Shown here: positions 15,817 through 18,967 of the stretch, piece by piece
How the letters are laid out: each line of letters starts with the position of its first letter
How positions within the stretch are numbered: the first letter of the stretch is position 1
Assembly: GCA_018436095.1 (NCBI GenBank)
Contig: JAHDMJ010000029.1
Span: forward strand, 1 to 39,259
DNA from: Clostridia bacterium
GTDB lineage: Bacteria > Bacillota > Peptococcia > DRI-13 > UBA5745
Reading direction: 5' to 3'
DNA length: 39,259 nucleotides
Position numbers and translations under genes: made by a program
The notes under the pieces: generated by a model
Databases searched by the model: none
What the model saw: only the letters and a program-made list of their open reading frames with translations
Told to the model about the DNA's origin: nothing

Positions 15817-16488
15817 TCAGTTGCTTTCTTCTTCCTTGAGTGCGGCATCCATGTAACTGTAAAGCGTATATTTTGAGATATTGAAGTGCTTCGCGATTTT
15901 ATCCCCGGACTTGGTGATCAGAAAGGCTCCGGCCTTGTTGAGATACTGAATGGCCTGAACTTTGTCTTCTTTCGTCATCAAGGCTACGGGTTTGCCGGTG
16001 ATGTTTACGGATTGGCTGATCAATTCATCCAACAGCTCGTTGACATTTTGGGGAATCCACTCCGGCTCCTTGGTAATGGCCTCTTCGGCCTGGCCCACCA
16101 AAGCGGTAAGCGCTTTTTCCGCCACCAACAGATGGGTAATATCATAGTTTAATGATAAAATCCCGGTGACGTTATTGTCCTCATCCCGGATGTAAATGGT
16201 GCTGGATTTCAGAATCCGGCCGTCATGAGTCTTGGAAAGGTAGGCCAGCTTATCTTCCAGCTCTGCTGAATTTTTTAAAGCTTCCAAGGCCTCCAAAACG
16301 ATGTGGGAAGGGCCGTCGCCAATTTTTCTGTTGGTCACATGACCGTTTTCAATGACGACGATAGTTTTTTCCGGATCATCGGTGGTGAGGTCGTGAATCA
16401 GTACCTCACAATCACTGCCAAACTGAAGAGCTAGTCCTTTGGCAAGCCGGCTAAGAAAATCAATGCGCAGCTTTCTTCTGGCTTCCAT
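15817..16488 (-). CDS. YheO-like PAS/DauR-type HTH transcriptional regulator
   Basis: 223 residues. The N-terminal YheO-like PAS domain (about 10-125: LALQFGSDCEVLIHDL, SSTIYIRDEDNNVTGILSLN) probably senses a small ligand, and the C-terminal HTH of the DauR type follows (about 185-218: SGDKIAKHFNISKYTLYSYM). Regulators of this class often control adjacent amino acid or nitrogen genes. It lies directly before ygeX on the same strand and divergent from ssnA, so it is the likely local regulator of the purine cluster. The ATG at 16488 is chosen for the AAGGGGG a few bases upstream; the frame stays open to 16563 but without a ribosome site. Confidence 0.85.
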   Translation of the reverse strand: MEARRKLRIDFLSRLAKGLALQFGSDCEVLIHDLTTDDPEKTIVVIENGHVTNRKIGDGPSHIVLEALEALKNSAELEDKLAYLSKTHDGRILKSSTIYIRDEDNNVTGILSLNYDITHLLVAEKALTALVGQAEEAITKEPEWIPQNVNELLDELISQSVNITGKPVALMTKEDKVQAIQYLNKAGAFLITKSGDKIAKHFNISKYTLYSYMDAALKEEESN

Positions 16489-16835: not shown

Positions 16836-16862
16836 AAGGAGTTCAAGGAGTTCAAGGAGTTC
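16836..16862. repeat. Tandem repeat, 9 bp x 3
   Basis: AAGGAGTTC occurs three times without gaps (16836-16844, 16845-16853, 16854-16862). It lies inside the possible short transcript. Confidence 0.9.
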
Positions 16863-17002
16863 ACCCCGCAGCATCCGAAACGAAAAGCGAAGTCAACTAA
16901 ATACTGATAGCTGCAAGGAAGTGCTATGCGCACGGGCTGACTATCACTCAGGAGAAGGTCCGGCACCTCAGGTCCGGCAAGTCCGGGGTCGCTGATCAAT
17001 CG

Positions 17003-17046
17003 ATGAGTGTTCTCTCACCAGAAGGTGGGGAGCGCTCATTTTTGTT
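17003..17046 (+). terminator. Strong rho-independent terminator
   Basis: The left arm (17003-17019, starting ATGAGTG) and right arm (17024-17039, ending GCGCTCAT) pair over 16 positions with several G-U pairs and one bulge around an AGAA loop, followed by TTTTTGTT. It is oriented to stop plus-strand transcription from the promoter at 16752-16780, well before ssnA. Confidence 0.7.
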
Positions 17047-17081: not shown

Positions 17082-17132
17082 TTGCCTGAGTGGCTGAGTT
17101 GCCTGAGTGGCTGAGTTGCCTGAGTGGCTGAG
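17082..17132. repeat. Tandem repeat, 17 bp x 3
   Basis: TTGCCTGAGTGGCTGAG is repeated exactly three times (17082-17098, 17099-17115, 17116-17132), followed by a partial fourth unit, TTGCC. The copies are identical, which suggests recent slippage and probable length variation between strains. Confidence 0.95.
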
Positions 17133-17200
17133 TTGCCCGATTGGCGGCAGTGAAAGGGCAAGTTGAGAAGGGCAGTAATGGCCGCTAGGGCGCCGATTGA

Positions 17201-17456
17201 GCAAAATTGCAGGTTTGTTGAACCGGAACGGCAAAAATGTGCAAAATTGCAGGTTTGTCCCTGTTCGAATAAAGCGTTAATGGACTTGAAAATGCTTTTT
17301 GACTGTATCTAGTGTTGGAGTCGGAATAGCTCACCTATTTTAGAGCAGGCAACTGGCAACAAACTTGCAATTTTGCTCAAAAGGACCGGAAATCGGCTAC
17401 AAACCTGCAATTTTGCACAAAAGGCCATTGGGTGGGTTACAAACCTGCAATTTTAA
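17201..17456. repeat. Five copies of an 18-bp motif, 40-bp period, two facing three
   Basis: GCAAAATTGCAGGTTTGT occurs at 17201-17218 and 17241-17258. Its reverse complement occurs at 17359-17376 (one mismatch), 17399-17416 (exact) and 17439-17456 (mismatch at the end). Spacing within each group is exactly 40 bases, about four helical turns. The two groups face each other across a 100-base centre (17259-17358). Spacers between copies differ. It may be an array of protein-binding sites controlling ssnA or a dispersed genomic repeat. Confidence 0.85.
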
Positions 17457-17470
17457 GCAAAACTACTGGC

Positions 17471-17520
17471 ACTGCCTCCGGACACTGCCTCCGGACACTG
17501 CCTCTGGGTACTGCCTGCTG
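17471..17520. repeat. Tandem repeat, 13 bp x about 4, decaying
   Basis: ACTGCCTCCGGAC is repeated at 17471 and 17484 exactly, then as ACTGCCTCTGGGT (17497-17509) and a partial ACTGCCTGCTG (17510-17520). Confidence 0.9.
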
Positions 17521-17635: not shown

Positions 17636-18967
17636 ATGAGCCTGTTAGTGGGAAATGGCAAAGTGGTTACCAGAGACGAAAGCCGGCCTTATCTGGCCGA
17701 GGGCTGTTTGTACCTTGAGGATGGTTCCATCAAGGAAGTGGGGGATACGAAAGAGCTGCGGGCCAAGTACCCGGAAGCTGAGTGGGTGGACGCCCAAGGC
17801 CGGCTGATTATGCCGGGGCTGATCAATACTCATCATCATATTTACAGCGCTTTTGCCCGGGGTTTGTCCATCCGAGGCTACAGCCCCAAAAACTTCGACG
17901 ATATTTTGGACGGCATGTGGTGGACCATTGACCGGAAGCTGAATCTGGAGGATTGCCGCTACAGCGCCTACGCCACTTATCTTAGCTGTATCCGCAACGG
18001 CGTCACCACCGTATTTGACCACCACGCCAGCTATGGGGCTATCGAAGGCAGCCTTTTTGCCATTGCCGATGTGGCAAAGGAGCTGGGCATCCGTACTTGT
18101 CTTTGTTATGAGGTGTCGGACCGGGACGGCCGGGCCAAAATGGAAGAAGCTGTGGCCGAAAACGCCGCTTTCATCCAGGCCTGTGCCAAAGATGACAGCG
18201 ATATGCTTTACGGTATGATGGGCCTCCATGCCGCTTTTACCCTTTCCGATGAGACTTTGAAATACTGTGCCAAGCACAAGGGAGACGCCGGCTACCATAT
18301 TCATGTGGCGGAAGGCTTGTCCGACGTTCAGGACTCCCTGAAAAAGCATGGCAAACGGGTGGTCAACCGCCTCTTTGATCTGGATATTCTGGGGCCAAAA
18401 ACCCTGGCCATTCACTGCGTTCATATCAATAGAGAAGAAATGGGCCTGCTGAAGTCCACGGATACTATGGTGGTTCATAATCCCGAGTCCAATATGGGCA
18501 ATGCCATCGGCTGCGAACCCATGCTGCAGATATTTAATGAAGGAATACTGCTGGGACTTGGCACCGACGGCTATACCAGTGACATGATCGAATCCTATAA
18601 AGTGGCCAATATTCTGCATAAGCACAATTTGGGCGACCCAACGGTGGCTTGGGCCGAGGTGCCGGCTATGCTTTTCGAAAATAATGCCAAGATCGCCAAC
18701 CGCTATTTCAAAAAGCCTTTGGGCATAATCAAAAAGGGAGCGGCAGCCGACGTCATTATTTGCGATTATGATCCCTTGACTCCCATGGACGGCGGCAATG
18801 TTAATTCTCACATACTCTTCGGCATGAACGGCTTTAGCGTTACCCATACCATTATCGGCGGCAAGATGATTATGGCGGATCGCCAAATCCTGGCGGCCGA
18901 TGAGGCTGAGTTAATGGCGGAGAGCCGCAAACAGGCAGCGGCGCTTTGGCAGCGGATCAACGGCTAA
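17636..18967 (+). CDS. ssnA: SsnA, amidohydrolase-family aminohydrolase
   Basis: 443 residues; amidohydrolase superfamily, related to chlorohydrolases and guanine deaminase. The metal-binding motif is NTHHHIYSAFARG (His66-68); other metal ligands are in YHIHVAEG, LAIHCVHI and LGTDGYTSD. The name comes from E. coli, where it was first tied to stationary-phase survival; in anaerobic purine clusters it is thought to deaminate or open a purine-derived ring. AAAGGAGGAG is placed well before the ATG at 17636; upstream in-frame codons to 17573 run into the 14-bp repeats and are not used. First gene of the plus-strand operon, 16 bases before ygfK. Confidence 0.93.
   Translation: MSLLVGNGKVVTRDESRPYLAEGCLYLEDGSIKEVGDTKELRAKYPEAEWVDAQGRLIMPGLINTHHHIYSAFARGLSIRGYSPKNFDDILDGMWWTIDRKLNLEDCRYSAYATYLSCIRNGVTTVFDHHASYGAIEGSLFAIADVAKELGIRTCLCYEVSDRDGRAKMEEAVAENAAFIQACAKDDSDMLYGMMGLHAAFTLSDETLKYCAKHKGDAGYHIHVAEGLSDVQDSLKKHGKRVVNRLFDLDILGPKTLAIHCVHINREEMGLLKSTDTMVVHNPESNMGNAIGCEPMLQIFNEGILLGLGTDGYTSDMIESYKVANILHKHNLGDPTVAWAEVPAMLFENNAKIANRYFKKPLGIIKKGAAADVIICDYDPLTPMDGGNVNSHILFGMNGFSVTHTIIGGKMIMADRQILAADEAELMAESRKQAAALWQRING

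Follow-up and report, generated by a model that had tools for sequence, protein, structure and literature searches.

A dispersed family of facing, helically phased motif arrays in a clostridial genome, one copy of which lies in the ssnA leader

The locus studied here raises the question of whether a strikingly regular array of short repeats upstream of ssnA is an operator of that gene or something else. The array occupies positions 17201 to 17456 of the window (the whole stretch of 39,259 nucleotides analyzed) and has two motif copies facing three. Copies of the 18-mer start at 17201 and 17241 on the forward strand and at 17359 (one mismatch), 17399, and 17439 (two mismatches) on the reverse strand. 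The start-to-start spacings are therefore 40, 118 (spanning the 100-base center, 17259 to 17358), 40, and 40. At up to three mismatches, the window has five matches, where dinucleotide shuffles give an expectation of 0.04. A sequence-only reading had described the five copies, their 40-base spacings, the facing arrangement, and the 100-base center, all of which we recovered, and had correctly placed the array upstream of ssnA, as its position 3' of the ssnA RNA and 5' of the ssnA start codon (17636) shows. The features are as follows.

15817..16488, reverse strand: YheO/DauR-like regulator (PAS_6 and HTH_22), a neighbor and an unlikely binder of the array
16901..16948, forward strand: ssnA RNA motif RF03031, a neighbor outside the element, found also in the congener G004
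17198..17218, forward strand: outermost left unit TGAGCAAAATTGCAGGTTTGT, the left end of the element, its edge 3 bases outside the 18-mer, where homology to the sibling island L056 stops
17238..17258, forward strand: inner left unit TGTGCAAAATTGCAGGTTTGT, 40 bases from the outermost left unit
17259..17358, no strand: 100-base center, non-motif island sequence about 86% identical to L056
17301..17317, reverse strand: conserved center sequence CAACACTAGATACAGTC, common to the single-pair core elements of G004
17359..17379, reverse strand: inner right unit TGAGCAAAATTGCAAGTTTGT, a motif match
17399..17419, reverse strand: middle right unit TGTGCAAAATTGCAGGTTTGT, a motif match
17439..17459, reverse strand: outermost right unit TGCTTAAAATTGCAGGTTTGT, an 18-mer with two mismatches
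17636..18967, forward strand: ssnA (amidohydrolase), the downstream neighbor

The leader has other features of its own. A hairpin with a short T-run lies 3' of the ssnA RNA at 16998 to 17046 and is conserved, being kept in G004. The leader is a possible riboregulator, with the repeat lying on the 3' side of both the RNA and the hairpin. Three unrelated short tandem repeats (17082 to 17145, 17470 to 17516, and 16836 to 16863, with repeats of 17, 13, and 9 bases, respectively) crowd the same leader.

An operator array through which the DauR-type regulator controls ssnA cooperatively by looping, as the sequence-only reading had proposed, would fit the position of the array between the regulator gene and ssnA and a spacing that puts the sites on one DNA face. 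The genome-wide count argues otherwise. The host genome, G000 (3.7 Mb in 38 contigs), contains 461 matches to the 18-mer when up to three mismatches are allowed, compared to 2 for a reversed control pattern. By a crude open reading frame caller, 19 of the motif islands lie between convergent genes, 22 between co-directional genes, and 5, the window copy among them, between divergent genes. The intergenic gaps of at least 30 bases on contig C4 number 28, 131, and 34, respectively. This enrichment in convergent gaps argues against operators, which would show the opposite bias. Moreover, G004 keeps the regulator, the ssnA RNA, and ssnA at 84 to 87% nucleotide identity with no array at its ssnA locus, and around the neighboring gene in related genomes the motif was found at none of 80 loci, apart from one isolated match with 3 mismatches. 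The sites are neither confined to the promoters of a regulon nor kept beside ssnA in relatives, and we consider control of ssnA by DauR through this array to be highly improbable. The window array is one member of a dispersed family, which had been offered as the fallback reading, and not an ssnA-specific switch. In the ssnA leader, where it separates the RNA motif from the start codon, the copy is probably a passenger.

The conserved unit (the M1 word) is 21 bases long, TG[TA]GCAAAATTGCARGTTTGT, and has sharp edges, with information near background on both sides (268 units). In 746 kb of host sequence, sampled partly around known motif copies, we found 64 islands with 315 units, a few of which were admitted at 4 to 5 mismatches when next to better copies. 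On contig C4, which was included in full, we counted about 13 islands over 391 kb, and by extrapolation from this density, about 100 or more islands are expected genome-wide. Several host contigs end inside islands, as expected because repeats break assembly. Like MITEs, the islands are short, non-coding, multicopy, and dispersed in intergenic DNA. Exact 40/41-base M1 arrays occur in their own genome only, among the 25 genomes of the order examined. Scans for the exact array in genome contigs, viral contigs, plasmids, and phages returned no match in sets that possibly left out the host genome.

The architecture of the islands is uniform. Nearly every one of the 64 consists of rightward units followed by leftward units (>>..<<), and the junctions comprise 67 convergent and 12 divergent cases, the latter coming from neighboring or nested elements. 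Same-strand spacings are exactly 40 or 41 bases in 147 of 172 cases. The distances between facing arrays cluster at 87, 96 to 98, 106 to 109, 116 to 119, 127 to 129, 136 to 140, 148, 159 to 160, 168 to 170, and 181, with a best period of 10.45 bp (p = 0.001 by simulation with the period scanned, using one length per homology cluster and length class). With one value per cluster the result is p = 0.03, from only seven clusters. The largest well-defined homologous cluster has lengths of 87, 96 to 98, and 108 to 109; thus, indels in the center came in whole helical turns. As the distances move in steps of about 10.45 bases even within one subfamily, helical phase appears to have been kept. Because some centers contain internal 10-bp repeats that could help make length steps of about 10 bp, and because shared descent is only partly removed from the statistic, we regard the case for selection on helical phasing as strong but not proven. 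The earlier suggestion that a four-turn period places the sites on one DNA face for bridging gains support from the phasing of the centers as a property of the repeat family, but it does not stand as a mechanism of ssnA control. What makes these repeats of interest is their strict unit spacing and helical length ladder rather than ssnA.

Facing arrays could also act in RNA, as a long transcript hairpin involved in termination or mRNA stability and favored downstream of convergent genes. The preference for convergent gaps is consistent with this, as is the predicted fold of the window array (-96.5 kcal/mol, z -5.9), which is far better than that of shuffled sequences. However, good folding is expected of any inverted repeat, and hairpins require neither 40/41-base spacing nor loop lengths in steps of 10.45 bases. 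Contrary to selection for pairing, there is no left-right covariation of the motif within an island, as facing units differ by 2.17 mismatches within islands and by 2.04 between them. In addition, no Rfam family matched within the islands above threshold. An RNA-level role for the arrays is thus quite unlikely.

The limits of the repeated unit were determined by all-against-all alignment of islands with 500-base flanks. In many pairs, homology stops 0 to 3 bases beyond the last 18-mer of the shorter array, and the partner runs one 40-base unit further. We conclude that the repeated unit begins and ends with the motif arrays and, as in MITEs, is bounded by terminal inverted repeats. L056, on contig C30, is a sibling of the window island, with 86% identity outside the motifs and 95% inside. 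Across 36 sibling pairs, the divergence of the motif is 0.35 times that of the rest, a ratio with a slight bias from recognizing units by their similarity to the consensus, and the motif is the more identical part in 35 of the 36. The target-site duplication expected of a MITE was not found at the outermost ends of 60 islands (k = 2 to 9, seven end definitions).

The slower change of the motif relative to the linkers is also what would be expected of host architectural sites, i.e., phased arrays in intergenic gaps at which a nucleoid or looping protein bends or bridges DNA, spread long ago by recombination and now kept by the host. Strict spacing, helical phasing, and the lack of a target-site duplication and of a live transposase in the searches made fit this explanation as well, and it is the main rival to a mobile element. 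The comparison with the congener, which is about 85% identical in nucleotide sequence, weighs against it. For six of the eight islands with syntenic flanks, the window island among the six, the corresponding G004 interval lacks the M1 motif, and the other two intervals, one of them 8.6 kb long, do contain it. The G004 intervals without the motif do not represent clean empty sites, since the intergenic DNA on their flanks differs too. Host sites are also hard to reconcile with the confinement of the 40/41-base arrays to this genome among the 25 of the order and with islands that are copies of one another ending at the motif. Overall, we consider host architecture to be a doubtful explanation. 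In place of M1 arrays, G004 has single-pair elements ending in TGAGCAAAATTGCARGTTTAAAGTGT, the core elements being 124, 134 to 136, 145 to 146, and 156 bases long, again about 10.5 apart.

This plan is shared by a second family, TGTACAAAAATTGCGTTTGT, which a search of G004 for self-similarity at 40/41 bases uncovered. It has a 20-base motif, a 41-base period, and mostly two units facing two at distances of 119 to 120, 140, and 150; there are 62 copies in G000 and 88 in G004. A third word, TGTGCAAAAATCGAGGTTGTG, has a 62-base spacing and in some cases lies inside elements of the M4 type described below. Loci are as follows.

Second family: G000:C4:126168-126408; G004:C1:169312-169532 and 336312-336531
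Third word: G000:C4:9404-9484; L134; L137; L162

The M1 word and these two words look related, and their likeness suggests a diversifying recognition system. The ssnA locus of G004 (L104) has, where the array stands in the window, a short inverted repeat, TTGTACAAAAAACGAACTTGTGCTCGAATTTGTACAGTTAACC, 3' of the conserved hairpin and ahead of the start codon. Its sequence is similar to the second and third words, and it may be what remains of a related element.

The M4 element is about 180 to 430 bp long, with inverted ends GAGGGCACTGAAAAAGTC that differ from the M1 arrays and that we take to be IS1182-like. Many of its 25 copies in G000 and G004 have duplications of 8 to 9 bases, and it looks like an ordinary MITE. 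Its insertions favor the M1 motif: of 10 copies in unbiased sequence, 6 lie within an M1-like word (up to 6 mismatches), compared to 2.6% of random sites. The M4 copy at C4:165807-166069 splits an M1 unit, and when the insert is removed together with one of the two 9-base duplicates, the usual 41-base spacing is restored. That M1 island therefore predates that insertion.

If the islands are mobile, a transposase might be encoded elsewhere in the genome, which was searched with profiles PF01695, PF00665, PF13751, PF01609, and PF01797. The IstB search returned only DnaC/DnaA-like matches, the rve search only an IS3-type transposase without the motif, and no Y1 (RAYT) transposase was found. The sole DDE_Tnp_1 match is a decayed relic of an IS1182-type transposase (G000:C4:168804-169314). 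No intact candidate was present among the transposase families searched. We accordingly rejected three partners: IS21, for want of istA/istB genes; REPIN/RAYT, for want of a Y1 transposase; and IS1182 as a partner of the M1 arrays, of which there is only the relic, the MITE with IS1182-like ends, M4, having different ends from the arrays. As there is neither a target-site duplication nor a transposase of the tested families, we do not claim membership of a named family.

Several known systems resemble the islands in part. In eukaryotic foldback elements, the long inverted ends are made up of tandem units in varying number, as in the islands, which differ in being bacterial, only about 0.15 to 0.35 kb long, and of strict 40/41-bp period. 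Bacterial MITEs such as RUP and Correia/NEMIS (reviewed in PMC2229807) are likewise short, non-coding, intergenic, high-copy inverted repeats with no obvious source gene nearby; however, they usually have one inverted-repeat pair and target-site duplications, where the islands have tandem 40/41-bp units at each end and no duplication was detected. REPINs and BIMEs (PMC3116915, PMC2817692) are also inverted pairs of a short conserved word across intergenic space. In contrast to these, the islands have no RAYT/Y1 gene in the genome, a word that is not a small hairpin, and regular tandem units that face each other rather than alternate. Our search for literature on helical phasing in MITEs found nothing directly relevant.

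In end structure, IS21 offers a parallel. Its member IS5376 has direct repeats separated by 23 bp, and an IstA tetramer binds and wraps the ends (PMC10122671); in the islands, the gap between 21-bp units is 19 to 20 bp. Both have several direct repeats per end, inverted between the ends and beginning with 5'-TG (PMC10122671). An oligomeric transposase wraps both ends of IS21 (PMC10122671), and a comparable protein may do so here. These likenesses would fit the view that the arrays are multi-site ends of the IS21, Tn7, or Tn402 type, left behind after loss of the autonomous partner. The islands differ from IS21 in having as many as four units at an end and in lacking coding cargo. Against this view, no duplication was detected, and the genome has no IstA/IstB gene and no IstB or rve-type transposase with the motif. 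We consider descent from such a class unlikely.

We favor, as the probable explanation, old MITE-like elements, lineage-restricted and non-coding, whose multi-site ends would need bridging by a transposase-like protein. The islands are about 150 to 350 bp long, each end having one to four tandem 21-bp sites at a near-four-turn period of 40/41 bp, and the two ends face each other across a center of about 65 to 180 bp. An oligomeric transposase-like protein may bind the tandem sites at both ends and draw the ends into contact by closing a short loop that is stiff and falls below the DNA persistence length. An element would then stay competent only if its length set the sites in helical register, and this bridging would account for the sites staying on one helical face. 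Copies with good sites presumably kept spreading. More tentatively, and with considerably less confidence, these repeats might represent a mobile or architectural system new to description in a clostridial genus, with several related motif families of about 21 bp, phased facing tandem sites, and a candidate protein that bridges short DNA loops and mobilizes or retains the element with no duplication of the target site.

The case is a caution against taking every conspicuous phased array ahead of a gene for its operator. If our reading is true, the islands form a series of naturally occurring lengths from which it can be seen that the two ends of a very short mobile element have to share a helical face, a constraint on transposon ends otherwise measured with engineered transposons (IS50/Tn5). 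With several motif families built on one plan of 40/41-bp units and steps of about 10.45 bp, the bridging geometry of the protein would be inferable from sequence.
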